This document shows, piece after piece, positions 20,315 through 53,186 of a stretch of 64,000 nt of DNA. The position numbers were made by a program, and so were the translations under genes. A model generated the notes under the pieces. The model saw nothing but the letters and a program-made list of their open reading frames with translations. It was not told the origin of the DNA and made no database searches. Within the stretch, counting starts at the first letter, position 1; the number at the start of each line of letters is the position of its first letter. Source of the DNA: Kaistia granuli DSM 23481 (lineage in GTDB: Bacteria > Pseudomonadota > Alphaproteobacteria > Rhizobiales > Kaistiaceae). Location: the NCBI RefSeq assembly GCF_000380505.1, contig NZ_AQYH01000016.1, positions 31,156 through 95,155 on the forward strand, read 5' to 3'.

Positions 20315-20342
20315 GGTCAGGGGGACGCGATTGCCTCGCTCC

Positions 20343-20478
20343 AATTCCCTCCCCCTTTTGGGGCGGGCTAGGGAGGGCGTACCTGCGCCGTCGTCTCCGA
20401 TGAATTTATTGGGGCGGCAAACGCCCGGCGTACAGCCGGTACCCCCACCCCGGCCCTCCCCGCAAGGGGAGGGGGAAG
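20343..20478. repeat. Composite paired-palindrome intergenic repeat, copy 2
   Basis: 136 bases with the same boundaries as 8466-8604: left end AATTCCCTCCCCC, right end GGAGGGGGAAG, a palindrome at each end (one broken: CCTCCCCCTTTTGGGGCGGG), and CCCCCACCCCG before the right one. The middle differs between copies. It fills the whole gap between URC4 and the GTP cyclohydrolase II-like gene. Confidence 0.65.
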
Positions 20479-20487
20479 AATGAGCTC

Positions 20488-21744
20488 TCAGTATTTCTCC
20501 AGCGAGCGTCCGACGGTATGGGCGAGGTCGTCGGCCGAGGGAGGCGCGTCGGCGCTGAAATAGCCGGCCGCCTTCTTCGCCTCCATCTCGACGCGGGCGT
20601 CGATCGGGATCAGCGCGTCGGGCAGCGGCACGCGCTCGCGGATCTCGATGCCGGAGCTGGTGATCGCCTCGTATTTCATGTCCGACATCGAGACGAAGCG
20701 ATCAATCCGGGTGATGCCGAGCCAATGCAGCACGTCCGGCATCAATTGCTGGAAGCGGGCGTCCTGCACGCCGGCGACGCATTCGGTGCGCTCGAAATAG
20801 GTCGCCGCCTGGTCGCCGCCCTGCTGCCGCTTGCGGGCATTGTAGACGAGGAACTTCGTCACTTCGCCGAGCGCGCGACCTTCCTTGCGATTGTAGACGA
20901 TGAGGCCGACGCCGCCCGCCTGCGCTTCCTTCACCGCCTCCTCGATGCCGTGGATGAGGTAGGGCCGGCAGGTGCAGATGTCGGAGCCGAACACGTCGGA
21001 GCCGTTGCATTCGTCATGCACGCGGCAGGCGAGGCGCCGTTTCGGGTCGGCGATCGCGTCGGCGTCGCCGAAGATGTAGAGCGTGATGCCGCCGATCGGC
21101 GGCAGGAACAGGTCGAGGTCGGGCCTCGTCACCAGCTCGGGATACATTCCGCCGGTCTGCTCGAACAGCGAGCGGCGCAATTGTTCCTCGGCGACGCCGA
21201 AGCGCGCGGCGATGCCCGGCAGGTGCCAGACCGGATCGAGCGCCGCCTTGGTGACCGAGACGTCGCCATTCTCGTGCACGATGGCGCCGTCGATCGGGAT
21301 GCGCTTCAGCCGGATTGCCTCATGCAGCTCGATCATGGTGAGCCGCGCCTTGGTGACGGCGATGGTCGGCCGGATGTCGACGCCCTCGGCGATGAGATCG
21401 CTGAACAGGTCGGCGGCGAGATGGCCGAACGGATCGAGCGAAACGATCCTTCCCGGCTCCGACCATTGCGGATGCGGGCCGATCGTCACCGCCGGCGAGG
21501 TATTGCGGAAATCCGGCCGCTGGATCGGGTTCAGCGCGCCGGACGAGACGGCGAGCGCCCGGTAGAGCGAATAGGAGCCGCCATGCGTGCCGATGGTGTT
21601 GCGGTCGGAAGGGTTCGAGACCGTGCCGATGACCGGGCCGCGTCGGCGGGGGTCAGGGTCGCCCCAATGGATCGGAAAGCGGACCGGCGCCTGGGCGCCC
21701 GGATGCGAGGTCAGGCGGATATGCGTCGAACGGTTGATCGTCAT
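20488..21744 (-). CDS. GTP cyclohydrolase II-like protein, URC1 type
   Basis: 418 residues, about twice the size of RibA. The C-terminal half holds the GCH2 zinc site HDECNGSDVFGSDICTC (C-x10-C-x-C) and VIYNRKEGRALGEV-like substrate loop (GLIVYNRKEGRALGEV). The long N-terminal domain (HWGDPDPRRRGPVIGTV, SVTKAALDPVWHLPGIA) is that of URC1 rather than riboflavin enzymes, and there is no DHBP synthase domain. URC1 is thought to open the pyrimidine ring of a uracil-derived ribonucleotide. It is upstream of URC4 on the same strand. Confidence 0.85.
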   Translation of the reverse strand: MTINRSTHIRLTSHPGAQAPVRFPIHWGDPDPRRRGPVIGTVSNPSDRNTIGTHGGSYSLYRALAVSSGALNPIQRPDFRNTSPAVTIGPHPQWSEPGRIVSLDPFGHLAADLFSDLIAEGVDIRPTIAVTKARLTMIELHEAIRLKRIPIDGAIVHENGDVSVTKAALDPVWHLPGIAARFGVAEEQLRRSLFEQTGGMYPELVTRPDLDLFLPPIGGITLYIFGDADAIADPKRRLACRVHDECNGSDVFGSDICTCRPYLIHGIEEAVKEAQAGGVGLIVYNRKEGRALGEVTKFLVYNARKRQQGGDQAATYFERTECVAGVQDARFQQLMPDVLHWLGITRIDRFVSMSDMKYEAITSSGIEIRERVPLPDALIPIDARVEMEAKKAAGYFSADAPPSADDLAHTVGRSLEKY

Positions 21745-21825
21745 GATGCTCCAACGGCTTGCAAGAGCACGCCAGCATGATCCGTGACGCAGCGGAAGGG
21801 AAGAAAATTCGCGTGGTCGCCTCGG

Positions 21826-21928
21826 CGTCATCCCCGCGCAGGCGGGGATCCATGCAGCCGAAGCACTGGGAGGCCCGCACCCCCGGGAAACCCGGCTGCT
21901 GGATCCCGGGTCAAGCTCGGGATGACGG
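21826..21928. repeat. Two short palindromic repeats of the GGATCCC...GGGATGACG type
   Basis: Copy 1 (inverted) has arms ATCCCCGC (21830-21837) and GCGGGGAT (21842-21849), flanked by CGTC and CCATGC. Copy 2 reads CTGGATCCCGGG...CTCGGGATGACGG at 21899-21928. A third copy is at 31533-31562 and a decayed one at 8402-8430. The 283-base gap 21745-22027 holds no gene that I can support. Confidence 0.65.
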
Positions 21929-24892: not shown

Positions 24893-24944
24893 TCCGCCCG
24901 CCTTACTGGATCCGATCCTTCCCGATCGCATGGAGTGCCCGCGC

Positions 24945-25904
24945 GTGGCCAAGAAGCTCATTCTCGACGTCGACACCGGAACCGACGACGCCGTCGCCAT
25001 CATGCTGGCGGCGCTGCATCCGGAAATCGAGCTGGTCGGCGTCACCACCGTCAACGGCAATGTCGAGGTCAAGTTCTGCACCGACAACACGCTGCGCGTG
25101 CTCGACCATATCGGCCGTTCCGACATTCCGGTCTATGAGGGCTCGAACCGCCCCCTCGTGCGCGACAATTTCCCGGTGGCGCGTGGCGTCACCGACCAGG
25201 CGTCGAAATTCCATGTCGAGACGCTGCCGGTGCCGGCGGCGAAGTCGAAGAAGGCCGCCAAGGGCGCCGTCGACTACCTGGTCGAGACCTATCGCAATGC
25301 CAAGGATCCGATCGCGCTGATGCCGGTCGGACCGCTCACCAACATCGCGGCAGCGCTCGCCGCCGATCCGGATTTCGCCAGGCGCGTGCCGGAGCTGATC
25401 ATCATGGGCGGCGGCCACGAGATCGGCAACATGACGCCCTCGGCCGAGTTCAACATCTGGGCCGATCCGGAAGCGGCGGCCCGCGTGCTGAACGCCGGCT
25501 TCGAGAAGGTGACGCTGGTGACGCTCGACGCGACGCACCGGGCGCTGGTTTCCTATGCCGATTGCGACCGTCTCGCCGCGCTCGGCACGCCCGCCGGCCA
25601 GGCGACGTCGGACATCGTCCGCTTCCGCATCGAGATGCACGACATCGCCCAGAAGATGGATGTGCTCGGCACGGCGCCGGTGCATGACGCCGTCTGCGTC
25701 GCCTATCTGGTCGATCCCGCGATCCTGACGACGCGCCGCCATCACGTCGACGTCGAGACGGGTGGCGCGCTGACCGTCGGCCGCACGGTGATCGACACGC
25801 ATTTCCGCGGCAACCGAGAGCCCAATGCCGATGTCGCCTTCGACGCGGATCCCAAGCGCTTTGTCGACATGCTGGCCGAGATTTTCGCCCGCCCGCATGG
25901 CTAG
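24945..25904 (+). CDS. Nucleoside hydrolase (inosine/uridine-preferring family)
   Basis: 319 residues. The N-terminal calcium-binding cluster DVDTGTDDAVAIM is diagnostic, joined by NGN (VTTVNGNVEV), MPVGPLTNIA, IIMGGG, AEFNIWADPEAA and the C-terminal PVHDAVCVAYL aspartate. It splits ribonucleosides into base and ribose. GTG 24945 gives the family-like start MAKKLILDVDTG with GGAG upstream; ATG 24930 adds five residues. Together with add, deoB and upp it extends the nucleoside-salvage theme, and with URC1/URC4 could supply uracil. Confidence 0.92.
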   Translation: MAKKLILDVDTGTDDAVAIMLAALHPEIELVGVTTVNGNVEVKFCTDNTLRVLDHIGRSDIPVYEGSNRPLVRDNFPVARGVTDQASKFHVETLPVPAAKSKKAAKGAVDYLVETYRNAKDPIALMPVGPLTNIAAALAADPDFARRVPELIIMGGGHEIGNMTPSAEFNIWADPEAAARVLNAGFEKVTLVTLDATHRALVSYADCDRLAALGTPAGQATSDIVRFRIEMHDIAQKMDVLGTAPVHDAVCVAYLVDPAILTTRRHHVDVETGGALTVGRTVIDTHFRGNREPNADVAFDADPKRFVDMLAEIFARPHG

Positions 25905-25937: not shown

Positions 25938-27608
25938 CTACCCCCGCCGCACCACCTTCTCCGATGGCACGTCAAAATGCTGGATGCCCTTCTTCGCCGC
26001 CTCGTCGAGCGCGTCCTCGTAGCCGGCATCGGCATAGCGCAGCACGCCGAGCGAGGTGTCGTTGGTGAGCGCCCGCGCAAGCCGTTCGCCAGCGGCCGGT
26101 GTACCGTCGGCGACCAGCGTGACGCCGGCCGAGGTCATGTAGCCGGCATAGCCGCCGCCGCCCGAATGGACGGTGACGAGATCGGCGCCGGAGGCGGCAA
26201 GCGCCATGGCGTCGAGCAGCGGCCAGTCGGCGATGGCGTCGGAGCCGTCACGAAGGTTCTCCGTCATGATGTTGGGATGCGCCATCGCGCCGGCGTCGAG
26301 GTGGTCGCGGGAAAAGGCGATCGGGCCGGAGAGCGCGCCGGCCGCGACCATGTCGTTGACCGCGAGCGCCAGTTCGGTGCGCGCGCCGTGGCCGAGCCAG
26401 GCGATCCGCGCCGGCAGGCCCTCGAACGGCACGTTCTCGCGCGCCAGCCTTATCCAGTTGGTGACGATCGGGTTGTCGGGGAAGCGCTCCAGCACGAGAT
26501 CGTCGATGCGGCGGATGTCTTCCGGGTCGTTTGAAAGCGCCATCCAGCGGAACGGCCCGATGGCGCGGGCAAACAGCGGCCGCAAATACGCCTCGGTGAA
26601 GATCGGGATGTCGAAGGCGTTCGCCACGCCGGCCTCGCGGGCCTGGGTGCGGATCAGATTGCCATTGTCGAACACGACCGAGCCATGGCGCCGGAAATCC
26701 AGCATGGCGCGGACATGCGGGACGATCGAGGCGCGCGACAGCGCCATCAGCCTGGCCGGGTCGGACTGGCGCAGGGCCCGGACCTCGGCCAGCGGAAGGC
26801 CGGCCGGGACATAGCCATAGACAAGGTCATGCGCCGAGGTCTGGTCGGTGACGATATCGGGATAGATGCCGCGCCGGACAATCTCGGGATAGATCTCGGC
26901 GGCGTTGCCGACCAGGGCGACGGAGAGCGGCTCGCGATGATGGCGGGCGTGGGCAATCCGCTGCAGGGCGGTGTCGAGGTCGGGCGCGATCTCGTCGACA
27001 TAGCCGATCGCCTTGCGCTTTTCCGCCCGCTCGGGATCGACGTCGACGGTGAGGATGGCGGCGTTCGCCATGCGGCCGGCGAGCGGCTGCGAGCCGCCCA
27101 TGCCGCCGAGCCCGGCGGTCAGGATGAAGCGGCCCCGCAGATCGCCGCCGAAATGCTTCTCGGCGATCCGCATGAAGATCTCGTAGGTGCCCTGGATGAC
27201 GCCCTGGCTGCCGATATATTGCCAGGCGCCGGCCGTCAGCCCGCCCCAGCAGATCAGGCCTTTCTGCTCCAGCTCGTAGAAATATTCCGCCTTCGCCCAT
27301 TGGCCGACGATGTTGCAGTTCGCCATGATGACGATGGGCGCCTGCACCTGCGTGCGCAGCAGGCCGATCGGCTTGCCTGACTGGACGATGAGGGTCTGGT
27401 CCTCGTCCAAGGTTTTCAGCGCCTGGACGATGGCGTCATGCGCTGCCCAGTTGCGCGCCGCCTTGCCGAGGGCTGCGTAGACGATCAGGCTGTCCGGGTC
27501 CTCGCCGACCGAGAGCACGTTTTCGAGCAACCGCAGCAGGCCCTCCTGCCGCCAGCCCTTGCAGCGGAGCGTCGTGCCCGAGGTGACGGGATAGCGCGGG
27601 TTCCTCAT
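25938..27608 (-). CDS. Urocanase-family protein lacking the catalytic cysteine; candidate thiourocanate hydratase
   Basis: 556 residues, full urocanase length and architecture: DPDSLIVYAALGKAARNW, LIVQSGKPIGLLRT, the NAD-binding TAGLGGMGGSQP, and HSGGGGYAGYM. In urocanase the signature is FQGLPARICWLG, whose Cys is essential; here it reads FEGLPARIAWLG, with Ala403. Further changes are YGG to YAA and THAD to TQVQ in the substrate loop. Characterised thiourocanate hydratase is a urocanase homolog with no urocanase activity. As last gene of a cluster starting with a histidase-like lyase, hydration of thiourocanate in ergothioneine breakdown is the best reading. A canonical HutU is the alternative, argued against by the Cys loss and the absence of hutI/hutG. 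Confidence 0.8.
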   Translation of the reverse strand: MRNPRYPVTSGTTLRCKGWRQEGLLRLLENVLSVGEDPDSLIVYAALGKAARNWAAHDAIVQALKTLDEDQTLIVQSGKPIGLLRTQVQAPIVIMANCNIVGQWAKAEYFYELEQKGLICWGGLTAGAWQYIGSQGVIQGTYEIFMRIAEKHFGGDLRGRFILTAGLGGMGGSQPLAGRMANAAILTVDVDPERAEKRKAIGYVDEIAPDLDTALQRIAHARHHREPLSVALVGNAAEIYPEIVRRGIYPDIVTDQTSAHDLVYGYVPAGLPLAEVRALRQSDPARLMALSRASIVPHVRAMLDFRRHGSVVFDNGNLIRTQAREAGVANAFDIPIFTEAYLRPLFARAIGPFRWMALSNDPEDIRRIDDLVLERFPDNPIVTNWIRLARENVPFEGLPARIAWLGHGARTELALAVNDMVAAGALSGPIAFSRDHLDAGAMAHPNIMTENLRDGSDAIADWPLLDAMALAASGADLVTVHSGGGGYAGYMTSAGVTLVADGTPAAGERLARALTNDTSLGVLRYADAGYEDALDEAAKKGIQHFDVPSEKVVRRG

Positions 27609-27621
27609 CACGTCTCGCCCT

Positions 27622-28758
27622 TCATTTCTTGCCCTTCCGCTTCTTCCTGGTCTCTTCCTCGAACACGTAGCGGGCGATCTCGATGCCCATCGCCGCCTCG
27701 ACCGGCGGATAGACGGACGGATCGAGCACGCCGGCCGAGAGCGGGATGATCGTCTTCGGCACATGCAGCACATGCACGTTCATGCCGACATGCAACTGGC
27801 CGACCGAGAGCGGCTCGCCGTCCTTGTCGAGCGTGGTGATGACATCCGGGAAGGTGGCAATCCGTGTGCCGGCGGCGTCGTCGATCGCCATGTATTCGTT
27901 CATGACATGCAGCGTCGTCGCCTTGTCGCCGCTGCCGATCACCACCGTGCCGATGTCGAAGGCGGCGTTGGTGTAGACAACGTCCTTGCGGGCGATGCGG
28001 CCGGAAACGGCGATCGCGCCGCCCGTCACCTTGCAGATCGCGTCGATGACGGCGCTGCCGCCGCCCTTGCCGGGGCCCTTGCCCTCGGCGGCGAGGATCG
28101 CCTCGCCGAGCGCCAGCGCCATCGAGATGCCGCCGAGCGCGGCGTTCTTCCGCACATAGCTGGCGCGCACCGGATTGCGGGCCGAGGCGATGAAGCCGCC
28201 CGACATGTCGGAGGCGGTGCGCAGGATCGGCGAGATCTTGGCGGTGGCGCCGCGCACGGCCAGCTCGATATAGCGGTTGTCGGCGCGATTGCCGCCGACC
28301 GCGGTCTGGATCGTCGGCTCGGGCGAGGCGGCGAGGCCGATCGAGCCCATGTCGCCGGTCGGGTGGGCGCGGATGTCGCCGACGGCGTCGAGCACCTTGG
28401 TGCCGAGGATGGCCGAAGGCAGCCAGCCGTTCAGCGTCGAGGAACGGCCGTTCTGGCCGACCATCAGCGCCGCCAGCGGCTCGCCAAGGGCTTCCTGCAA
28501 CAGGCGCACCGCCTTGACGTAGTCGACGCCCTGCATCTCCCATCGCGTCGTGCCGGCCGGCGCGCCGATGGCGGCGGCGGTGGCAACCCAGTCGTCCTTC
28601 TCGAGCTCGTCAAGCGTGACCAGCTCGGGCCGGCCGATGCGCACGGCCGCGAGGCCCAGCATGCGGCCGTGATCGGCCCAGCCGCCGCCGCCCGCCGCGT
28701 AGACAGAACCGCCGCGAACGGCGGCTTCAACGTCCTTCTCGGTCAGGATGCGGCCCAT
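27622..28758 (-). CDS. DUF917 family protein; candidate thiohydantoin-propionate desulfhydrase
   Basis: 378 residues matching DUF917 along its length: GGSVYAAGGGGWADHGRML, APAGTTRWEMQG, PLAALMVGQNG, GDIRAHPTGDMGSIG, MNEYMAI, FPDVITTLD and HVGMNVHVLHVPK. DUF917 proteins often neighbour hydantoinases. AAGGAA precedes ATG 28758. It lies 13 bases before the urocanase-like gene and 78 after the M20 gene. In ergothioneine breakdown the thioxo-imidazolidine propionate must lose sulfur before ring opening, and this is the only enzyme of the cluster without another assigned step. The role is therefore by elimination. It could instead be a second hydantoin-acting hydrolase. The C-terminus is strongly basic (RKKRKGKK). 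Confidence 0.7.
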   Translation of the reverse strand: MGRILTEKDVEAAVRGGSVYAAGGGGWADHGRMLGLAAVRIGRPELVTLDELEKDDWVATAAAIGAPAGTTRWEMQGVDYVKAVRLLQEALGEPLAALMVGQNGRSSTLNGWLPSAILGTKVLDAVGDIRAHPTGDMGSIGLAASPEPTIQTAVGGNRADNRYIELAVRGATAKISPILRTASDMSGGFIASARNPVRASYVRKNAALGGISMALALGEAILAAEGKGPGKGGGSAVIDAICKVTGGAIAVSGRIARKDVVYTNAAFDIGTVVIGSGDKATTLHVMNEYMAIDDAAGTRIATFPDVITTLDKDGEPLSVGQLHVGMNVHVLHVPKTIIPLSAGVLDPSVYPPVEAAMGIEIARYVFEEETRKKRKGKK

Positions 28759-28836
28759 GGCGGAAGTTCCTTTCGGGAGCGTTTCGAGCGAATTGGACAC
28801 CGGGTCGCGGGCAAGAAACCGCGGCCCTTCCTGGTT

Positions 28837-30093
28837 CTAGGCGAGGGCCTTGTCGAGGCGGAGCACGGCTTCGTAGAGGACGGCGGCGCCGGCGGCGATC
28901 TCGCCTGGCTCCGACCATTCGTCCGGCGTGTGGCTGCGGCCGTCCTTCGAGGGAATGAAGATCATCGCCGAAGGGGCGATGCGCGAGAACCAGGCCATGT
29001 CGTGGCCGGCGCCCGACGCCATCCAGTGGGTCGTGAGGCCGAGCGCCCCGCTCGCATCCTCCAGCACGTCGAGCAGGCGGGGATCGGATAGCGCCGGCAA
29101 GGCGTCGGACAGGATGCGGAATTCGCTGATCCGCGTCGCCGTTCCGGACATCGCCCGCGTCAGCAGCGGGCGCAATTCCTCGACGAAGCCCTGCAGAAAG
29201 CCGCGCTCCTCGGCGCGCGCGTCGAGCAGCAGGGTGACCCGGCTCGGCACGACATTGGCGGCATTCGGCTCGATGCGGAATTCGCCGACGGTCGCGACGA
29301 AATGGCCATGGCCGGCGGCCGCGCGGCGGCGCGCATCCTTGGCGATGACCGAGACGGCCGCGGCGGCGCCGACCAGCGCGTCCTGGCGCAGCGTCATTGG
29401 CGTCGTGCCGGCATGGTCGGCGCGTCCCTCGATGACGATCTCGATCCGCGTGATGCCGGCGATCGCGGTGACGATGCCGATGTCGCGGCGTTCGTCCTGC
29501 AATACCGGCCCCTGCTCGATATGCATCTCGAGATAGGCGGCGATGTCGTCGCGCTTTGCCGTGTCGAGCTCGTCGACGTCGCCGCCCATGCGGTCGATCG
29601 CGGCGGCGAGAATTTCGCCGGTCGGCTCCGAACGGGTCAGCTGCTCTTCCGAAAGCTGGCCGGCAATGGCGCGGCTGCCGATGCAGGAGAGGCCGAAGAT
29701 CGACACCTCCTCGGCCAGGCAGTCGATCACCTCGAAGGCATGATCAAGCTTCGCGCCGTGGCGCGTGAGGCTGCGGGCGACGGCGATCCCGGCCATCACG
29801 CCGGCCGTGCCGTCGAAGCGGCCGCCATCTGGCACGGTATCGCTGTGCGAGCCGATGACGATCGTCTTGGCGTCCTCGGTCCGGCCCTCGCGCCGGCCGA
29901 TCAGATTGCCAGCGGTATCGATGCGGACGGCGAGCCCGGCGTCGCGCATGCGCTCGGCGACGAAGGCGCGACCTTCCAGGAACATCGGCGAGAAGGCGCG
30001 ACGCGTCCAGGGCCGGTCGGCGTCGGTCAGCGCGGCGAGTGCCATCAGATCGTCCCAGAGCCCGGTCTCGTCGATGGGCAGATTGGCGCGCAT
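28837..30093 (-). CDS. M20 Zn-dependent amidohydrolase (N-carbamoyl-amino acid hydrolase/allantoate amidohydrolase type)
   Basis: 418 residues. The metal site is GSHSDTVPDGGRFDGTAGV with CLAEEVSIFG (Glu-Glu), AYLEMHIEQGPVL, and the C-terminal SGAGHDMAWF. The lid domain has GITRIEIVIEGRADHAGTTPM. This set is that of carbamoylases and allantoate amidohydrolases, not of peptidases. It would release carbon dioxide and ammonia from an N-carbamoyl amino acid. It starts 8 bases after the hydantoinase-like gene, the usual pairing for hydantoin ring use. In the proposed pathway the substrate is N-carbamoyl-L-glutamate. Confidence 0.87.
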   Translation of the reverse strand: MRANLPIDETGLWDDLMALAALTDADRPWTRRAFSPMFLEGRAFVAERMRDAGLAVRIDTAGNLIGRREGRTEDAKTIVIGSHSDTVPDGGRFDGTAGVMAGIAVARSLTRHGAKLDHAFEVIDCLAEEVSIFGLSCIGSRAIAGQLSEEQLTRSEPTGEILAAAIDRMGGDVDELDTAKRDDIAAYLEMHIEQGPVLQDERRDIGIVTAIAGITRIEIVIEGRADHAGTTPMTLRQDALVGAAAAVSVIAKDARRRAAAGHGHFVATVGEFRIEPNAANVVPSRVTLLLDARAEERGFLQGFVEELRPLLTRAMSGTATRISEFRILSDALPALSDPRLLDVLEDASGALGLTTHWMASGAGHDMAWFSRIAPSAMIFIPSKDGRSHTPDEWSEPGEIAAGAAVLYEAVLRLDKALA

Positions 30094-30101
30094 GGTGCGG
30101 A

Positions 30102-31475
30102 TCAGTTTCCGATCGGCAGGGTGGCCGGCGGTCGCACGAACCGGCCCGATCCGGGTTCGGCCAGCACGTCGCGTCCGTCGAAGGCCAGTTTCCCGCGCAG
30201 GAACGTCGTGCTCACGCGCCAGGGGAGCTCGATGCCGTGATAGGGGCTCCAACCCACTACATTATGCCCACTCGCGCTGGCGTCATAGAGCAGCGGCTCC
30301 GGCGTCAACACGGCAATGTCGGCGTCCTTGCCGATTTCGAGCGCGCCCTTCTCGTGATCGATGCGGAAGTGCTTCGCCGGGTTCGCCGCCATCAGCCGGG
30401 CCGCCCAGGTCAGCGGGATGCCGCGCTCGAGCGCGCCCTTGACGAAGAGGGGCAGCATCACCTCGAGTCCCGGCACGCCGGAGGCATTGTCCAGCATGGC
30501 CGGCTTGGTCTTGCGGTCCTCCGACCACGAAACGTGATCGGTCGAGACCAGCGTGACATGGCCGAGGGTCACCTGCCGCCACAGCGCCTCGACCTCGGCG
30601 CGCGGCCGGATCGGCGGGTTGATTTTCGCCTTGCCGCCGAGGCGGCGGACGTCGTTCTCCTCGTCGAGCGTCAGATAGTGGATGCAGACCTCGACGGTTG
30701 CGGCAAATCCCTCGGCGCGGTAGCGCGCTGCGAGTTCGGGCCCGCGCGCCAGGGAAGAATGCACGACATGGGCCGGGCAACCCGTCAGCGCGCCGGTCTC
30801 GAAGATTTCGACATCGGCGAGAAGCTCCGTGATCGGCGGCCGTGACAGGCCATGCGCGCGCCAGTCGGTGACGCCCGAGGCCCGGACACGGGCCATATGC
30901 GCATCGACCGCCTCGTGGATCTCGTTGTGGACGCCGGCGGTGAGCCCTGTCGGGGCGATGGCGGCGAAGCAATCGGCGAGCAGCGCCGGCGGAATGCGCG
31001 GAAAGCGTTTGGCGTCGGTGCCGAAGGTCGAGAATTTGAACGCGGCGACGCCGGCCGCCACCATTTCGGGAATGCGGGCCGGGCCCTCCTGCGGGTCGAT
31101 CGTCCCATAGAGAGCATAGTCGACGCGCGCCTGCGGTGAGGCATGGGCGATCTTCCTCGCCACGGCCGCGGCGGAGCAGACGAGATTGCCCTCGTCATAG
31201 GGCATGTCGACGATGGTGGTGACGCCGCCGGCCGCCGCCGAGCGGGTCGACCAGAGGAAGTCCTCCTGGTCCTTCTGGCTCAGCGAATGTACCTGCGCGT
31301 CGATGGCGCCAGGCAGGATCAGCGCCTCGCCCAGCGCGTGCTTTTCGCGCGCTGCCGGAGCCTCGCCCTGGCCGATCAGGGCGATCTTGCCGTCGCGCAC
31401 CGCGACGAAGCCGCCGGGGATGATCCGATCGGCGGTGACGACGGTTCCGGAGAGGACGAGATCGAAATCGCTCAT
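30102..31475 (-). CDS. Dihydroorotase/hydantoinase-type amidohydrolase
   Basis: 457 residues of the cyclic amidohydrolase family. The N-terminal metal motif is PGAIDAQVHSLSQ: the usual first His of HxH is Gln61 and the second is His63. VAAFKFSTFGTD supplies the carboxylated Lys, GVHNEIHE and HVVHSSL metal histidines, and STDHVSWS the catalytic Asp. The QVH variant also occurs in one dihydroorotase branch. Carbamoylase gene 8 bases downstream suggests a hydantoin substrate; hydantoin-5-propionate fits the cluster. No pyr genes are nearby, so a pyrimidine biosynthetic role is unlikely. Confidence 0.85.
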   Translation of the reverse strand: MSDFDLVLSGTVVTADRIIPGGFVAVRDGKIALIGQGEAPAAREKHALGEALILPGAIDAQVHSLSQKDQEDFLWSTRSAAAGGVTTIVDMPYDEGNLVCSAAAVARKIAHASPQARVDYALYGTIDPQEGPARIPEMVAAGVAAFKFSTFGTDAKRFPRIPPALLADCFAAIAPTGLTAGVHNEIHEAVDAHMARVRASGVTDWRAHGLSRPPITELLADVEIFETGALTGCPAHVVHSSLARGPELAARYRAEGFAATVEVCIHYLTLDEENDVRRLGGKAKINPPIRPRAEVEALWRQVTLGHVTLVSTDHVSWSEDRKTKPAMLDNASGVPGLEVMLPLFVKGALERGIPLTWAARLMAANPAKHFRIDHEKGALEIGKDADIAVLTPEPLLYDASASGHNVVGWSPYHGIELPWRVSTTFLRGKLAFDGRDVLAEPGSGRFVRPPATLPIGN

Positions 31476-31532
31476 GGCTGCTTCCTCGGGTTCGGCGCCC
31501 CGGCGGGGGGCTGGGCCCATGAACACGGTCGA

Positions 31533-31562
31533 CGTTGGATCCCGGCCTTCGCCGGGATGACG
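31533..31562. repeat. Short palindromic repeat of the GGATCCC...GGGATGACG type
   Basis: Arms ATCCCGGC (31539-31546) and GCCGGGAT (31551-31558) around CTTC, ending in GATGACGG, like the copies at 21.8-21.9 kb. It lies inside the 112-base gap between permease 2 and the amidohydrolase gene, the widest gap of the enzyme half of the cluster, and may reduce transcription into the enzyme genes. Confidence 0.65.
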
Positions 31563-31587
31563 GCGGAGAATGACACGCGCGCCCGCC

Positions 31588-32346
31588 TCATCCCGTAACC
31601 TCCGCCAGCCGGCCCGTGCGCCGGGCGACGCGGCGTTCGAGGATCGCCAGGGCGTCATAGAGCAGTACGGCGAGCAGCGCGACGATGATGCCGCCCTGCA
31701 GGATGAAGGCGGTGTTGGAGGTGAGCAGGCCGGCGATGATCACCTCGCCGAGCCCCTTGGCGGCGACGGTCGAGCCGATCGTCGCCGTCCCCATGTTGAT
31801 GACGACCGAAAGTCTTATGCCGGCGAGGATGACGGGCAGCGCCAGCGGCAGCTCGACGCGAAAGAGCTGCTGGTTCGGCGACAGGCCCATGCCGCGCGCC
31901 GCCTCGACGACATTGCCGGGCACTTCCTTCAAGCCGGTGATCGTGTTCTCGAAGATCGGCAGCAGCCCATAGAGCACAAGCGCGATCAGGGTCGGCTTGA
32001 CGCCGAAGCCGACGACGGGAACCGCGAGGGCCAGCACGGCGACGGGCGGGAAAGTCTGGCCGATATTGACGAGGCTGCGCGACAGCGGCAGAAACTCCGC
32101 CCCCATCGGCCGGGTGACGAAGACCCCCATGACCAGCGCCAGCGCCGCGCCGATCAGGCTTGCCACCGCGACGAGGCCGAGATGGGCGAGCGTCAGGCTG
32201 AGCAGGCTCGACTGGGTGTAGATCGCCGGCGCGTTGTTTTCGGTGAAGGGCTTCAGGATCGGCTCGAACCATTCCGGCCTGAGAACGAGCGCCAGCAGCA
32301 GCGCCAGCGCCGCCAGACGGGCGACAGGACCGACAAGACGGCTCAT
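31588..32346 (-). CDS. Quaternary-amine type ABC transporter permease 2 (OpuA/OsmW family)
   Basis: 252 residues with about six transmembrane helices and the binding-protein-dependent permease loop VEAARGMGLSPNQQLFRVELPLALPVILAGI (EAA motif). INMGTATIGSTVAAKGLGEVI is the hallmark of the glycine betaine/choline/ergothioneine (QAT) permeases. Its ATG overlaps the ATPase stop codon by 4 bases (ATGA). A paralogous, larger permease is two genes upstream, so the importer likely has a heterodimeric channel. Substrate assignment is discussed under the cluster. Confidence 0.88.
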   Translation of the reverse strand: MSRLVGPVARLAALALLLALVLRPEWFEPILKPFTENNAPAIYTQSSLLSLTLAHLGLVAVASLIGAALALVMGVFVTRPMGAEFLPLSRSLVNIGQTFPPVAVLALAVPVVGFGVKPTLIALVLYGLLPIFENTITGLKEVPGNVVEAARGMGLSPNQQLFRVELPLALPVILAGIRLSVVINMGTATIGSTVAAKGLGEVIIAGLLTSNTAFILQGGIIVALLAVLLYDALAILERRVARRTGRLAEVTG

Positions 32347-33281
32347 GCCGGGCCGCTCGCATGGGCGAGAAGGGATTGGAGCGAGATCTTTCCGCGCACC
32401 GTGCCGTCACCCGCCGTGACCGGCAGCGCGTCGCGTCGGTGCCAGAGCAGTTCGGAAAGCGCATCGCGCAGCGTCGCCGTTTCCAGGATTGGCGGTCCCT
32501 CGGCCGTGCCCGGTTCGACGATCGAGGCGACCGGGGAGAGCGACAGCAGACGGAACGGCCGATCGACGCCGTCGACCAGTTTTTCCACGAAGCCGGGGGC
32601 GGGGTTGGCGAGGATCTCGGCCGGCGGCGCATATTGCAGCAGCTTGCCGCCATCCATGACGGCGATCTTGTCGCCGAGATGGATCGCTTCCTCCATGTCG
32701 TGGGTGACGAGCACGACTGTGATTCCGAGCCGCTGCTGTACGGCGAGCAGGTCCTCCTGCGCCTTGGCGCGGATGATCGGGTCGAGCGCGCCGAAAGGTT
32801 CGTCCATCAATAGCAGGCCGGGTTCGGCGGCGAGGGCGCGGGCGACGCCGACGCGCTGCTGTTCGCCGCCGGAAAGCTGGTGCGGGAATTTTTCGCGAAA
32901 ATCCTCCGGCTTCATGCTGAAGAGGGACAGAAGCTCGTCGACGCGCCTGGCGACGCGCGAAGAGTCCCAGCCGAGCAAGGTCGGCACGGTGGCGATGTTG
33001 CGGGCAACCGTCCAGTGCGGGAACAGGCCGTTGCCCTGGATGACATAGCCGATGCCGCGCCGGAGTTCCTCACCCGAGACCGAGGCGGTGTCCTTGCCGT
33101 CGATCAGGATGGTGCCGGAGGTCGGCTCGATCAGCCGGTTGATCATGCGGAGGGTCGTCGACTTGCCCGAGCCGGAGGTGCCGACGATCACCGTGATGGT
33201 GCCGCGTTCGACGGAAAACGAGACGTCGTCGACGGCGAGCTGTTCGCCGAAGCGGCGACTGACATGGTCGAGTTCGATCAA
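32343..33281 (-). CDS. Quaternary-amine type ABC transporter ATP-binding protein
   Basis: 312 residues. Walker A is GTSGSGKSTT, the signature motif LSGGEQQRVG, Walker B LLLMDEPFGALDP, and the H-loop VTHDMEEA. The C-terminal ~90 residues form a CBS-like regulatory region (AVMDGGKLLQYAPPAEIL..LSLSPVASIV..VRGKISLQSLL) as in ProV/OpuAA relatives. QGNGLFPHWTV is the QAT-type Q-loop. The start is a TTG at 33281 overlapping the permease stop as TTGA; no ATG or GTG fits the family N-terminus MIELDHVSRRF better. Confidence 0.9.
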   Translation of the reverse strand: MIELDHVSRRFGEQLAVDDVSFSVERGTITVIVGTSGSGKSTTLRMINRLIEPTSGTILIDGKDTASVSGEELRRGIGYVIQGNGLFPHWTVARNIATVPTLLGWDSSRVARRVDELLSLFSMKPEDFREKFPHQLSGGEQQRVGVARALAAEPGLLLMDEPFGALDPIIRAKAQEDLLAVQQRLGITVVLVTHDMEEAIHLGDKIAVMDGGKLLQYAPPAEILANPAPGFVEKLVDGVDRPFRLLSLSPVASIVEPGTAEGPPILETATLRDALSELLWHRRDALPVTAGDGTVRGKISLQSLLAHASGPA

Positions 33282-34468
33282 AGCCGGCGCCTTTCGGTGA
33301 GTTCGATGACCGCGTCGAGCAGGATGGCGGCGGTGAAGGCGAGCGCGATGGTGGGGACCGCGCCGAGCAGCACGAGGTCGGTCGCCGCCTGGCCGATGCC
33401 CTGGAAGACGAAGGTGCCGAAGCCGCCACCGCCGATCAGCGCGGCGATGGTGACCAGGCCGATATTCTGCACCAGCACGATGCGGATGCCCGTCAGGATG
33501 ACGGGGAGCGCCAGCGGCAGCTCGACCTGGAACAGGCGCTGGAAGCGCGTCATGCCCATGCCCTCGGCCGCCTCGACCACCGAGCGGCGCACCTCGCCGA
33601 GGCCGACTACCGTGTTGGCGACGACGGGAAGCAGCGAATAGAGGAAGAGCGCGATCAGCGCCGGCGCCGTACCGATGCCGCGAATGCCGAGCTGGGCGGC
33701 GATCGGGAACGAGGCGGCGAATAGGCTGAGCGGCACGATCATCAGCCCGTACATCGCCATGGACGGCACGGTCTGGATGATGTTGAGGACCGGCAGCGTG
33801 ATGCCGCGCAGGGTCGGGTTGCGGTGGCAGGCGATGCCGAGCGGCAGGCCGACGACGATCGCCGCGGCGAGCGAGCTGACGGCGAGGAGGATGTGCTGCC
33901 GCCCCTCGCGCCAGAACTTGTCGGCGTTGGTGGCGTATTCCTTCAGGATCGACAGCCCGTCCCAATGGCCGGAGCCGAGGATCAGCGCGACGGCGACCGC
34001 AGCCCCCGCCAGCATGCCGAGCCGGGCGAGCGGGCCGAGCCTCAGCTTGGCGATGGCGTCGGTGGTCAAGACCGCGAAGGCGAAGGCCATCAGCCAGAAG
34101 CCGGAGGCCGGCGAAACGCGCGCGAAGGTATTGCCGGGCGGCACCACGGTCGCCGGCACCAGGCCGATCAGCAGCGCCAGCACGAGCAGCGAGACGATGC
34201 CGGTGGTGAGCCGCAGCCAGGCGTTCGTGCGCAGCACGGCGACGATGGTGGCGATCGACAGGATGCCGATGCCGATCGCCGCCCACAGCGTCGGCAGTGA
34301 TCCAGCGAGGCTCAGCCCCTGGCCGGAGATCAGCCGGTTCGGCTTCAGCGTGGCAAAGGGTTGCCAGTCCATGCCGGCGACGGCGATCAGCGCCACGACG
34401 ACGCCGACGCGGTCGAGCCGCGCGGTGAGCGGGACGGGTGGGGCGGCGGTCTGGCTGGCGTCCGTCAA
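33278..34468 (-). CDS. Quaternary-amine type ABC transporter permease 1 with N-terminal extension
   Basis: 396 residues. The C-terminal 220 residues are a QAT permease: SLAAAIVVGLPLGIACHR, VVEAAEGMGMTRFQRLFQVELPLALPVI (EAA motif) and VQNIGLVTIAALIGGGGFGTFVFQG. The N-terminal ~170 residues add about four extra hydrophobic segments, making it longer than typical OpuAB/OsmY-type permeases (~220-300). The apparent start is TTG 34468 with GGGAA upstream; a GTG and an ATG lie further in. It is translationally coupled to the ATPase gene. Confidence 0.85.
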   Translation of the reverse strand: MTDASQTAAPPVPLTARLDRVGVVVALIAVAGMDWQPFATLKPNRLISGQGLSLAGSLPTLWAAIGIGILSIATIVAVLRTNAWLRLTTGIVSLLVLALLIGLVPATVVPPGNTFARVSPASGFWLMAFAFAVLTTDAIAKLRLGPLARLGMLAGAAVAVALILGSGHWDGLSILKEYATNADKFWREGRQHILLAVSSLAAAIVVGLPLGIACHRNPTLRGITLPVLNIIQTVPSMAMYGLMIVPLSLFAASFPIAAQLGIRGIGTAPALIALFLYSLLPVVANTVVGLGEVRRSVVEAAEGMGMTRFQRLFQVELPLALPVILTGIRIVLVQNIGLVTIAALIGGGGFGTFVFQGIGQAATDLVLLGAVPTIALAFTAAILLDAVIELTERRRL

Positions 34469-34591
34469 GCCGGTTGGTTCCCTTCGGGGGCTGCTGTCTC
34501 GGCCAAATCGGGGCGCCGAAGGATCGGCGCGGCGCGAAGCAGGAGCTTAGGGCCAAATCCCCTTGCCGCAAGGTGATATTGGCTAACGGGA

Positions 34592-34683
34592 GGTTAACGG
34601 GGCGGGCCCTGTTAACCCCCGGACGGCAACCGCGTCGGCGCCGCCCGGTTTCACGTGAAGCGTCGTCCGGTTTAGCGCCGGAC
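34592..34683 (-). promoter_or_regulatory. Hairpins between the binding-protein gene and permease 1
   Basis: Immediately after the binding-protein stop codon on the minus strand lie GTCCGG/CCGGAC (34665-34670, 34678-34683) and, further on, GGTTAAC/GTTAACC (34592-34598, 34611-34617) extended by a GGG/CCC core. A palindrome TTCACGTGAA lies between them (34650-34659). No T-run follows. Such stem-loops after the first transporter gene often stabilise the upstream mRNA and give excess binding protein. Confidence 0.5.
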
Positions 34684-35595
34684 CTACTTCAGAAGGCCCT
34701 TCTCGGTCAGCCAGCTCTTGGCGACTTCCTTGGCCGGCTCGCCGCCGACCTGGATGCGGCCGTTCAGTTCCTGCAGCGTCTTGAGGTCGAGCGCGGCGAA
34801 CACCGGCGTCAGGACCTCCTGGATCTTCGGGAACTTCTTGAGCACTTCCTCGCGCACGATCGGCGCCGGCGCATAGACCGGCTGCACCGCCTTGTCGTCG
34901 TCGAGCACGACGAGGCCGGCGGCCTGGATGGCGCCGTCGGTGCCGTAGACCATGGCGGCGTTGACGCCGTCGGTCTGCTCGGCCGCCGCCTTGATCGTCG
35001 CCGAGGTGTCGCCGCCCGAGAGAACCAGCAGCTGGTCCGGCTTCAGCGCGAAGCCATAGGCGGTCTGGAAGGCCGGAAGCGCGGCCGCCGAATTGACGAA
35101 CTCGGCCGAGCCGGCGAGCTTCACCTTGCCGCCGCCGGCGACCCACTTGCCGAAATCCGACAGCGATTTCAGATTGTTGGCGCTCGCTACCTCGCCGCGC
35201 AGGCCAATTGCCCAGGTGTTGTTGGCGGGCGAGGGCGCCAGCCAGACGATCTTGTTGGCGTCATAGTCGAGGGTCTTGGCCGCGTCATAGCCCTTGGCGG
35301 CGTCCTTCCAGAGCGGATCGTCGGCCTTGTTGAAGAAGAAGGCGGCATTGCCGGTATATTCCGGATAGATGTCGATTTCGCCGGCCGTGATCGCCTTGCG
35401 CACCACCGGCGTGCCGCCAAGCGAGATGCGGTCGTCGACGGAAATCCCGTTCGCCTCGAGCACGAGCGCGATGACGTTGCCGAGCAGCGTTCCCTCCGTG
35501 TCGATCTTCGACGAGACGACGACATCGGCCGCCCGCGCCGCGCCGATCGAGGCGAGGATCGTGGCGGCGGCCACGATGGTCTTCAAGGCTTTCAT
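34684..35595 (-). CDS. OpuAC/OsmF-type ABC substrate-binding protein, candidate ergothioneine binder
   Basis: 303 residues with a signal peptide (MKALKTIVAAATILASIGAARA, cleavage before ADVVVSSK). VSSKIDTEGTLLGNVIALVLEANG and EIDIYPEYTGNAAFFF are the hallmark loops of quaternary-amine binding proteins (OsmF/YehZ, EgtU domain). The hinge region reads GGDTSATIKAAAEQTDGVNAAMVYGTDG. Ligands of the family are trimethylated amines, including ergothioneine in EgtU-like members. As the gene directly after the lyase, it fits uptake of the lyase substrate. Ligand identity is inferred. Confidence 0.88.
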   Translation of the reverse strand: MKALKTIVAAATILASIGAARAADVVVSSKIDTEGTLLGNVIALVLEANGISVDDRISLGGTPVVRKAITAGEIDIYPEYTGNAAFFFNKADDPLWKDAAKGYDAAKTLDYDANKIVWLAPSPANNTWAIGLRGEVASANNLKSLSDFGKWVAGGGKVKLAGSAEFVNSAAALPAFQTAYGFALKPDQLLVLSGGDTSATIKAAAEQTDGVNAAMVYGTDGAIQAAGLVVLDDDKAVQPVYAPAPIVREEVLKKFPKIQEVLTPVFAALDLKTLQELNGRIQVGGEPAKEVAKSWLTEKGLLK

Positions 35596-35658
35596 GGCAG
35601 GGTCCCTCTACTGTCGGTTGATCTGGTCGTCCCGATTGTTCTTAGGGTGACGCTGACG

Positions 35659-37227
35659 TCAATGCGAGAAAATGAGTTCGTCGGTTGTGATGGATTCGTA
35701 GAAATTCCTGACTGTTTCCAAGAGCGCCGGCTGGAAAAGGTTGCGTTCGATCGTCTCGATGTCGAGCGACAGCGCGCGATCTTTGTCGAGGAAAGCGACT
35801 TCCGAACGAACCGATCCGTGCACGATCGCCACCAGCCCCGTCGGTTTCAGCCCCTGCATGTCGAGCCCCTGGGCGGCCAGCAGGGCTTCGATCGCCGTCA
35901 TCATGCGGAGCGCGGTGATCTGGCGGTTGAGCCGCTCGACGATCAGCGGCGCGAACATAGCCTCGTCCTCCATGCCGCCGGCGATCAGGAGCGGCATGGC
36001 CGAGACCGGCGCCAGCTCCGCCATGACGCGGCTGGCGAGATCGCCGGCGAGCTTGACCAGCGGCCCGAAGCCCGTGGCGTCGGTCGCCTCGGAGACGAGA
36101 TTGGTCGGCAGCAGGCCGCGCCCGCCATTGGCGATCAGCACGATGCGGTTCAGGATGTTGCGGGCGAGATGAGCGAGGCCCGGCCCGACCGATTGCAGCG
36201 TCAGCGCCAGTTCCAGCGGCAGCGAGCCGCCCGAGGTCATCGGAATGCCGTCGATGACGACGGGGTTGTCGTCCGGCCGCGCCGTGGCCGCTTCGACGGC
36301 CGCGGCGGCAAAGGCGACGACCCCGGCCGAGGCGCCGAAGATCTGCGCCATCATCCTAAGGCTGAGCGGGTCATGCAGATGGGTCGCCGGCGTCCAGGGG
36401 AACGCCTCCGCGACGGCGGTGAGCACGGTGCCGGCGGCGGCCTCGCGAGGCGAGCCGATCCGCACGGCCACCCGCCAGGGCTCGGGCGAGGCCCGCAGCG
36501 CCGCCGCCGCGCTCGATCCGGTCGCCATGGCGACGCGCACCGTCTGGGCTGCCTCGATCAGGGTCGCCCCGGCGCTGGCGATCGTCAGGGCGTTGGTGCT
36601 GACGGCGGAGAGCGCGTCCTTCAGGCGGAACACATGCGGCGTGAGGCCCGCCTCGCGCAGGGCGACCTCGGCCGGTTTCAGCACGCCGCGATGGAACACC
36701 TGGCCTTCGCCGGCGAGCGCCGTCGCCACCTGGCTCATCAGGCCGATATCGGCGGCGCCGATCGAACCGAGGCGGCGTACCACCGGCACGATGTCGGCGT
36801 CGAGCGCCGCGACATAGGCGCGGACGAGATCGGGGCTGCAGCCGACCATGCCGGAAAGCGCGGTGTTGACGCGAATGGCGATGCCGGCGCGGACGATCTC
36901 CGGCGCCAGCGGCTCGCCGACGCCGAAATGATGCGCCCGGACCAGGTCGGTGCGATCGGCGGAGGTGGCAAGCGCGACCGCGCGGTCCTTGATCGCGCCG
37001 ACGCCCGTCGTCACGCCGTAGAGCGGCCGGCCACCCTCGACCGCGCCACGCACCGCTTCATAGGCGTTCTGGACTTCGACGAGGCGAACCTCGCATGGCA
37101 CCACATGCAAGAGACCGCGCCCGATCAGCGACAGGGTCGACAGGCGGAGGGGGGAACCGTCCAGGATCACGGTATCACGCTGCGAGCCGGTCGCGTCTCC
37201 CAGCATTATCTCGGCGGTAGGTGGCAT
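35659..37227 (-). CDS. HAL/PAL-fold lyase without the MIO motif; candidate ergothionase
   Basis: 522 residues, the size of histidine ammonia-lyase. Tyr70 (LYGVTTGVG) matches the catalytic Tyr of HutH. The ASG triad that cyclises to MIO is replaced: the segment reads GSIGAADIGLM (154-164), so no Ser is available, and one residue is lost. HutH QDPYSLR is HDPLSLR (catalytic Tyr lost) and the LLNGTQ Asn is Ser (AVSTNALT); the Glu of QEDHVS is kept (MEDEAM). Ergothionase, which eliminates trimethylamine from ergothioneine, is a HAL homolog reported to lack MIO. AAGGA supports ATG 37227; ATG 37245 is possible. First gene of the cluster. Confidence 0.82.
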   Translation of the reverse strand: MPPTAEIMLGDATGSQRDTVILDGSPLRLSTLSLIGRGLLHVVPCEVRLVEVQNAYEAVRGAVEGGRPLYGVTTGVGAIKDRAVALATSADRTDLVRAHHFGVGEPLAPEIVRAGIAIRVNTALSGMVGCSPDLVRAYVAALDADIVPVVRRLGSIGAADIGLMSQVATALAGEGQVFHRGVLKPAEVALREAGLTPHVFRLKDALSAVSTNALTIASAGATLIEAAQTVRVAMATGSSAAAALRASPEPWRVAVRIGSPREAAAGTVLTAVAEAFPWTPATHLHDPLSLRMMAQIFGASAGVVAFAAAAVEAATARPDDNPVVIDGIPMTSGGSLPLELALTLQSVGPGLAHLARNILNRIVLIANGGRGLLPTNLVSEATDATGFGPLVKLAGDLASRVMAELAPVSAMPLLIAGGMEDEAMFAPLIVERLNRQITALRMMTAIEALLAAQGLDMQGLKPTGLVAIVHGSVRSEVAFLDKDRALSLDIETIERNLFQPALLETVRNFYESITTDELIFSH

Positions 37228-37409: not shown

Positions 37410-38801
37410 GTGATCGACAGCCTGATCGACAGTTCCGATGTCGCGATACCGATCCATGCGGTGGAGCCGGACGGCTTGGAGGCTCTCCTCGCCTCGCTCG
37501 GCGAGATCGAGGCTGCGTGGGCGCGGTCGACGGGTTTCGACGCGGCGGCCGGCGCCGTTACGATCATCGCCGACGCGAAGGGCGTCATCGGTCGCGTCCT
37601 GTTCGGGCTCGGGCGGGCCGACAGCCGTCGCCTCGCGCCGCTGATCACCGGCAAGCTGCCGAATATCCTGCCGCAGGGCGACTATCACTTCGTCAGTGAT
37701 CTTCCGGATCCGACCCTCGGCGCGCTCGGCTGGGCGCTCGGAAACTACCGCTTCGAGCGCTACAAGACCAATGCCGCCCCGGTGCCGAGGCTTGTCGTCC
37801 CGGCCGGCGTCGACGCGCCGAAGGCCCGCAGCATGGCGCGTGCGATCACTATGGTGCGCGATCTCGTCAACACGCCGGCCAGCGACCTCGGCCCGGCCGA
37901 GCTTTCTGCCGCGATCCATACGCTGGGCGCCCGCTTCGGTGCCACCGTCAGCGAGATCGTCGGTCGCGATCTGCTTTCCTCCAGCCTGCCGATGATCCAC
38001 GCGGTCGGCCGCGCCGCTGATGCCGAGCGCGCCCCGCGCCTCGTCGATCTCGTCTGGGGCGATCCCGATCACCCGAAGGTGACGTTGGTCGGCAAGGGCG
38101 TGACCTTCGATACCGGCGGTCTCGACATCAAGCCGTCAAGCGGCATGCTCCTGATGAAGAAGGACATGGGCGGAGCCGCCAACACCATGGGCCTCGCCCA
38201 CATGATCATGGACGCCAAGCTGCCAGTCCGGCTGCGGCTGCTGGTGCCGGCGGTCGAGAATGCGATTTCCGGCCCCGCCTTCCGGCCGGGCGACGTGCTG
38301 CGCTCGCGCGCCGGGGTGACGGTGGAGATCGGCAATACGGACGCCGAGGGCCGGCTGATCCTCGCCGACGCGCTGGCGCTGGCGGCGGAGGAGAATCCGG
38401 CGCTTCTGGTCGATCTGGCGACGCTGACGGGGGCTGCCCGCGTGGCGCTCGGCCCCGAGCTGCCGGCGATCTTCACCCATGACGACAGTCTCGCCGCCGA
38501 TCTCGCCCGCCATGCGGAGGAACGCTCCGATCCGCTCTGGCGGTTGCCGCTCTGGGCGCCCTATGAGGCGATGATCGATTCCAAGATCGCCGACATCAAC
38601 AATGCCGGCGCGGGCGGTTTCGCCGGTTCGATCACCGCGGCGCTGTTCCTGGACCGGTTCGTGCCCAAGACGATCCCCTGGATCCATGGCGACATCTATG
38701 CCTGGAACCCTTCGGGCAAGCCCGGCCGGCCGGAGGGCGGCGAGGCCCAGACCATCCGGGCCCTGTTCGCGCTGATCCAGCAGCGCTTCGGCACGGTTTG
38801 A
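37410..38801 (+). CDS. pepA: Leucyl aminopeptidase family protein (M17)
   Basis: 463 residues. The M17 signature NTDAEGRLILADAL is intact, with VGKGVTFDTGGLDIKPSSGMLLMKKDMGGAA supplying the metal ligands Lys and Asp and the bicarbonate/Arg region following. The N-terminal domain is shorter than in E. coli PepA and typical of the alphaproteobacterial second paralog. The start is a GTG at 37410 with AAGGA 7 bases upstream. It is divergent from the lyase gene, with about 180 bases between them in which no clear regulatory motif stands out. Confidence 0.93.
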   Translation: MIDSLIDSSDVAIPIHAVEPDGLEALLASLGEIEAAWARSTGFDAAAGAVTIIADAKGVIGRVLFGLGRADSRRLAPLITGKLPNILPQGDYHFVSDLPDPTLGALGWALGNYRFERYKTNAAPVPRLVVPAGVDAPKARSMARAITMVRDLVNTPASDLGPAELSAAIHTLGARFGATVSEIVGRDLLSSSLPMIHAVGRAADAERAPRLVDLVWGDPDHPKVTLVGKGVTFDTGGLDIKPSSGMLLMKKDMGGAANTMGLAHMIMDAKLPVRLRLLVPAVENAISGPAFRPGDVLRSRAGVTVEIGNTDAEGRLILADALALAAEENPALLVDLATLTGAARVALGPELPAIFTHDDSLAADLARHAEERSDPLWRLPLWAPYEAMIDSKIADINNAGAGGFAGSITAALFLDRFVPKTIPWIHGDIYAWNPSGKPGRPEGGEAQTIRALFALIQQRFGTV

Positions 38802-53087: not shown

Positions 53088-53186
53088 CGGGAGGTTGGTG
53101 GTGGACGAGCCACTCGCCAATCGGGTCAGGTCCGGAAGGAAGCAGCCCCAACGAGCCACGGCACGGGTCGCGTGCCAGCCTCCTAC
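53088..53186 (+). ncRNA. ffs: Signal recognition particle RNA, small bacterial type
   Basis: The apical domain GTCAGGTCCGGAAGGAAGCAGCC is present around 53125-53147 with the GGAA tetraloop and the A-C-rich symmetric loop. Outer strands GGAGGTTGG (53090-53098) and CCAGCCTCC (53175-53183) pair to close the rod. This 4.5S RNA binds Ffh to target membrane proteins. It lies directly upstream of dnaX, a conserved location in alphaproteobacteria. The exact ends are estimated from the helix. Confidence 0.92.

Follow-up and report, generated by a model that had tools for sequence, protein, structure and literature searches.

We analysed a 64,000-nucleotide (nt) stretch of the genome of Kaistia granuli DSM 23481 (contig NZ_AQYH01000016.1, positions 31,156 to 95,155; hereafter the window), which at 25938-37227 carries a nine-gene cluster that a preliminary description, made from the sequence, had read as a system for the uptake and breakdown of ergothioneine, an antioxidant of mushrooms. 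Open reading frames (ORFs) and Pfam matches agreed with the nine same-strand genes and the gene types given in that description. All nine ORFs lie on the minus strand, with the gene for a lyase first (start at 37227) and that for a urocanase homolog last (stop at 25938). In this order, their products matched the families Lyase_aromatic, OpuAC, BPD_transp_1, ABC_tran, BPD_transp_1, Amidohydro_1, Peptidase_M20, S-Me-THD_N with S-Me-THD_C (formerly DUF917) and Urocanase. From the lyase gene to the urocanase homolog gene, the spacing is 63 nt, 215 nt, an overlap of 4 nt, a second overlap of 4 nt, 112, 8, 78 and 13 nt; the overlaps join permease 1 to the ATPase gene and the ATPase gene to permease 2. 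The short spacing described earlier holds for most gaps but not everywhere, the widest (215 nt) lying between the binding protein gene and permease 1 and another measuring 112 nt. As had also been described, hutI, hutG, hutF and hutC were not found among the nine genes by Pfam; no genome-wide search was made for these four.

Four of the five predicted enzymes passed the cut-offs of NCBIfam equivalog models. The urocanase-fold protein (25938-27608) scored 1041.3 bits against the thiourocanate hydratase model NF058530 (cut-off 930), and the former-DUF917 protein (27622-28758) scored 581.1 bits against the thiohydantoin desulfurase model NF058529 (cut-off 440). The product of the gene at 30102-31475 matched ErtD, hydantoin-5-propionate amidohydrolase (NF058538, 768.5 bits, cut-off 600), and the M20-fold protein encoded at 28837-30093 matched ErtE, N-carbamyl-L-glutamate amidohydrolase (NF058540, 592.7 bits, cut-off 520). 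The best match of the hydratase in the PDB was 7ned at 787 bits, with the next at 626 bits and 8q9u at 605 bits. Both 7ned and 8q9u are labelled urocanate hydratase in the PDB; we take 7ned to be the Paenibacillus thiourocanate hydratase of Beliaeva, Leisinger and Seebeck from 2021, and we assume that 8q9u may be an S-methyl enzyme. The hydratases of Kaistia terrae and K. adipata share 96% and 92% identity, respectively, with that of the window, and K. adipata DSM 17808 carries the cluster as well. Inspection of the alignment supported the earlier observation that the urocanase Cys is missing: the position is occupied by Ala403 (codon at 26400-26402), and the same change from Cys to Ala was found in 98 of 98 thiourocanate-type locus proteins (94 distinct sequences, with the window's own gene counted twice), compared to Cys in 3 of 3 HutU controls. 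When the desulfurase model was run across the phylum, 6 of 398 genomes had a protein over the cut-off, the window's own genome included, and all six belong to its order. Separately, a DUF917-family protein adjoining an OPT transporter at another locus (L141, 9710-10762) fell below both desulfurase cut-offs (239 against 440 bits for the thiohydantoin and 215 against 450 bits for the S-methyl form); a third function is possible for this protein.

The fifth enzyme, the 522-aa lyase (35659-37227; PF00221), has the fold of histidine ammonia-lyase (HAL) and reached no NCBIfam cut-off. Relatives for which names were shown are called histidine or aromatic amino acid lyases. The Ala-Ser-Gly triad that forms the 4-methylideneimidazole-5-one (MIO) group is absent from the lyase, in agreement with the preliminary description, and is replaced by Ala158-Ala159-Asp160 (codons at 36748-36756) in a loop, GSIG-AAD-IG, that is one residue shorter than the HutH loop. 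Leu288 (codon at 36364-36366) and Lys392 (codon at 36052-36054) are conserved as Leu and Lys in 71 of 71 locus lyases, one of which is a fragment without the loop (L061), and in the solved ergothionase of Treponema denticola, 6s7j. The three HutH/HAL controls have Tyr at the first position, presumably equivalent to Tyr280 of Pseudomonas putida HutH, and Val or Tyr at the second. These residues were picked from the alignment by the analyst, and their roles are those generally ascribed to them in the family. The lyase matches the Leu/Lys/Ser-x-Asn active-site pattern of 6s7j as a whole, which was also the closest fold to the lyase structure; the alignment behind this structure had 32 rows (the window's lyase, 29 sequences chosen by the analyst from 120 listed homologs and two HutH-type locus proteins). 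The comparison with the T. denticola enzyme that had been proposed at the outset thus gave a shared active-site pattern, a shared HAL fold and a shortened, MIO-less loop, at 26-27% identity. The loops differ, with Glu-Gly in 6s7j and Ala-Ala or Cys-Ala across the clade of the window's lyase. A second MIO-less lyase, more T. denticola-like and with the loop GSIGAGDLG, was seen in another genome (L162, 6688-8319, in G294), which carries the hydratase but not the lyase clade of the window.

We then examined how these genes are arranged and distributed elsewhere. Eighty loci were kept from 421 hydratase relatives. The order lyase-ErtD-ErtE-desulfurase-hydratase was found in 63 of them, and a further seven had the same five enzymes with the importer in the same place. 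The other loci ran from ErtD to the hydratase (four), ran from ErtE to the hydratase (three), held the hydratase alone (two) or were without ErtD (one), and the desulfurase was present in 78 of the 80. No lyase was seen in nine loci, three of which (L002, L016 and L062) lie at contig ends. The remaining six (L009, L012, L017, L055, L058 and L070) are hydratase-desulfurase-ErtE clusters, some with ErtD, and each of the six genomes, when searched, carried the same lyase elsewhere; an alternative entry step for lyase-less clusters is therefore unneeded. L009 is a divergent set that includes an SBP_bac_3 binding protein, a GntR/UTRA regulator and an NtaA/DmoA-type monooxygenase. Among 297 genomes of the same order, the hydratase model matched in 157, of which 17 were over the cut-off at 1014-1061 bits, and the matches listed below the cut-off all scored at most 720 bits. 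The lyase (at least 250 bits, a threshold set by the analyst after seeing the score list) was found in 14 of the 17 hydratase-bearing genomes compared to 2 of the 280 others (Fisher 2.3e-19). These scans scored at most four (hydratase) or five (lyase) first-look candidates per genome and may therefore have missed some. Within the genus Kaistia the trait is patchy, with a hydratase over the cut-off in two of seven genomes sampled, the window's own and one genus-mate (G244). The active-site pattern, the best fold match to a solved ergothionase and the co-occurrence with the hydratase together suggest that the lyase is an ergothionase, predicted to convert ergothioneine to thiourocanate and trimethylamine.

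Collectively, the four equivalog matches, the lyase pattern and fold, and the lyase-hydratase co-occurrence make it very probable that the nine genes are an operon-like cluster, presumably co-transcribed, whose products would take up ergothioneine and convert it to L-glutamate through a five-step route that is already known. The assignment of one breakdown step to each enzyme in the preliminary description is upheld on this evidence. In the proposed scheme, the ABC (ATP-binding cassette) importer would bring in ergothioneine, a betaine, and the MIO-less lyase would eliminate trimethylamine to give thiourocanate; we propose that the MIO electrophile may not be needed because the trimethylammonium group leaves easily. 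Thiourocanate hydratase would convert thiourocanate to thiohydantoin propionate, the desulfurase would swap the sulfur for oxygen with release of sulfide, ErtD would open the hydantoin ring, and ErtE would cleave off the carbamoyl group to leave glutamate, CO2 and ammonia. A five-step bacterial ergothioneine catabolism was reportedly described in Paenibacillus by Beliaeva, Leisinger and Seebeck in 2021. The window has all five enzyme types of that pathway, with hydratase, desulfurase, ErtD and ErtE over their equivalog cut-offs and the hydratase nearest 7ned. The window's version differs in being alphaproteobacterial, in its divergent lyase, which falls below the NCBIfam cut-offs, and in its linked four-gene importer.

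Several observations count against this interpretation. The structural margin of 6s7j over MIO enzymes was modest, the identity to it is low, and the sequence score was slightly higher for a chain named probable HAL than for the ergothionase (136 against 127 bits). Three genomes carry the hydratase without this lyase, and two carry the lyase without the hydratase. The HAL and urocanase folds, the database names of lyase relatives, which include histidine ammonia-lyase, and the hutU model, which the hydratase passed at 703 bits (cut-off 375), would also fit an unusual histidine-utilisation locus in which HutH and HutU homologs have relaxed active sites. However, the hutU score is below that of the thiourocanate equivalog, the hutH model gave only 182.6 bits against a cut-off of 539, and the MIO triad and the urocanase Cys are both lost, consistently among relatives. 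No imidazolonepropionase or formimidoylglutamate enzyme is encoded among the nine genes, and the genus-mate G244 has this cluster plus a separate HutU-type match. We therefore give a histidine pathway next to no weight. The disguise as a hut locus, which was expected to mislead automated annotation, proved partial: current NCBIfam models name four of the five enzymes correctly, and it is the lyase that reaches no specific model.

Two other substrates related to ergothioneine were considered. Separate NCBIfam models exist for S-methyl thiourocanate hydratase (NF058531) and S-methyl thiohydantoin desulfurase (NF058532), and both matched window proteins, as would be expected of a cluster that degrades S-methyl-ergothioneine and releases methanethiol rather than sulfide. 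Both matches were far below their cut-offs (758.8 against 880 bits and 280.6 against 450 bits) whereas the hydratase and desulfurase models for the unmethylated substrates were passed, and the hydratase scored higher against 7ned than against 8q9u, so that this substrate is highly unlikely. Breakdown of ergothioneine sulfonate, an oxidised form, would rely on enzymes of much the same kinds (lyase, hydratase, hydantoinase and carbamoylase). A sulfonate pathway in Agrobacterium radiobacter is cited in PMC13405746. If sulfite left earlier, as in the sulfonate route, the thiohydantoin desulfurase would be superfluous, yet this enzyme passes its model in the window and is present in nearly all loci kept, which makes the sulfonate very improbable as the substrate here.

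The importer gene set is of the OsmF/YehZ type, with a binding protein (34684-35595), permease 1 (33278-34468; PF00528), an ATPase of the ProV/betaine class with a TTG start (32343-33281; PF00005) and permease 2 (31588-32346; PF00528) in four adjacent genes. The ATPase matched proV (TIGR01186) best, at 290 bits and below the cut-off of 327. The periplasmic binding protein passed the OsmF glycine betaine equivalog NF049931 (504.5 bits, cut-off 400) and was 76% identical to 5teu (464 bits). It resembles the YehZYXW/OsmF importers (5teu, 4nd9 and 4wep) in these respects and differs from them in being encoded within an ergothioneine-catabolic cluster. With the EgtU importer (9egi and 7txl), which takes ergothioneine according to PMC9732360, it shares the broad quaternary-amine binding-protein class and, by prediction, the cargo. 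It is distant from EgtUC (108 bits against the EgtU chain 9egi), and it is a separate chain accompanied by two permease genes. The importer-bearing loci came from Kaistia, Chthonobacter, Microvirga, Devosia (three) and an Azospirillaceae bin, so that in several families the importer is tied to an operon of this kind, which puts ergothioneine forward as a candidate ligand that can be tested. A binding protein of at least 350 bits, a threshold set by the analyst after seeing the score list, was found in 10 of 12 hydratase-bearing genomes, linked in eight, compared to 36 of 237 others. This count assumes that the 249 genomes of the binding-protein scan are G000-G248, and in each genome at most nine first-look candidates were scored, so that some may have been missed. 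On gene position, the cargo of the importer is likely ergothioneine, and of all the functions predicted here from sequence this is the one to be held most cautiously.

The competing possibility is that the enzymes degrade ergothioneine while the linked importer carries something else, such as the osmolyte glycine betaine. The match to the OsmF glycine betaine model favours this, and other findings speak against ergothioneine as the cargo. In a tree of 16 linked and 21 unlinked binding proteins the two kinds are intermingled, and no position of the mature protein separates them. The linked rows include L137, which has a lyase beside it although its genome gave no hydratase match, and the unlinked rows are drawn from the best 30 places of the binding-protein scan, where flanks of about 1.5 kb were seen. 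Label changes numbered nine, at least four of them forced by starred branches, and 13 of 500 shuffles were as low, which suggests some clustering; the idea that cluster-linked importers form a clade of their own was rejected because of the intermixing. Three genus-mates in which no hydratase exceeded the cut-off have a binding protein of 63-65% identity, and 73 of the 80 loci lack this importer inside the fetched stretch. On the other hand, 5teu is YehZ of Brucella abortus, which according to PMC5894108 bound glycine betaine only at millimolar concentrations and did not interact with proline, choline, ectoine or carnitine. The importer is also part of the operon in seven loci, and a matching binding protein accompanies the hydratase in most genomes that have the hydratase. 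We judge a different solute to be a real but minority possibility. The same paper describes polyphenol binding by a more distant relative, ProX of Mycobacterium tuberculosis, which speaks against a single ligand across the wider family. In the literature searched, nothing joined YehZ or OsmF with ergothioneine, save an oral cancer paper in which the letters OsmF likely mean something else. The proposal that the transporter imports the trimethylated betaine therefore fits its position, but since linked and unlinked copies intermix and no position separates them, cargo specificity is not readable from the sequence. Ergothioneine may be the usual cargo throughout this family, or else a general betaine importer has been recruited into the cluster more than once, and sequence comparison does not choose between the two. 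A locus (L140, 1419-7166) in the genome of a family-mate (G182, 98% complete) holds the lyase and a full OsmF-type importer with no hydratase match; perhaps only trimethylamine is cleaved off there.

The cluster is flanked by two recognised plus-strand genes, for a nucleoside hydrolase (24930-25904) and an M17 aminopeptidase (37410-38801), which have no evident link to the pathway, and neither the nine genes nor their surroundings showed a regulator. Promoter and terminator scans were not above shuffled sequence (one promoter-like element against a shuffle mean of 0.8, and three terminator-like elements against 4.4). The cluster's own genes were the sole HAL and urocanase homologs matched in the window's genome, which also gave no match to an EgtD-type methyltransferase. 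The organism is therefore likely a consumer and not a producer of ergothioneine, and it likely cannot use histidine by the classical hut route. Elsewhere in the window, a DUF1688 protein (19079-20344) adjoins a GTP cyclohydrolase II-like protein (20488-21831), both on the minus strand, which we take to be URC4 and URC1, a pair from one route of uracil degradation. Rfam gave a single match above its gathering score in the window, a bacterial small signal recognition particle RNA at 53090-53186, and ARAGORN found no tRNA in the window.

The pathway is already published and current annotation models cover four of its five enzymes; what the present analysis adds is a divergent clade of lyases that are still misnamed, and a hypothesis on the importer that can be tested. 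The results would extend likely ergothioneine consumers to alphaproteobacteria, among relatives of Rhizobium, Shinella, Devosia and Kaistia. This bears on published counts: PMC13405746 concluded from a BLAST search with the Burkholderia sequence that only a few genera have ergothionase, and noted that divergent homologs would escape such a search; the lyase clade of the window may be a case of this kind. Through the linked importer, a solute-binding family whose function is unsettled gains a specific candidate ligand. Tentatively, and with the odds against us, we suggest that the orphan YehZYXW/OsmF importers, now classed as weak carriers of glycine betaine, in fact import ergothioneine, and that the catabolic operons reveal this true ligand. 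If so, importers encoded outside these operons would bring in ergothioneine as a protectant and not as food.

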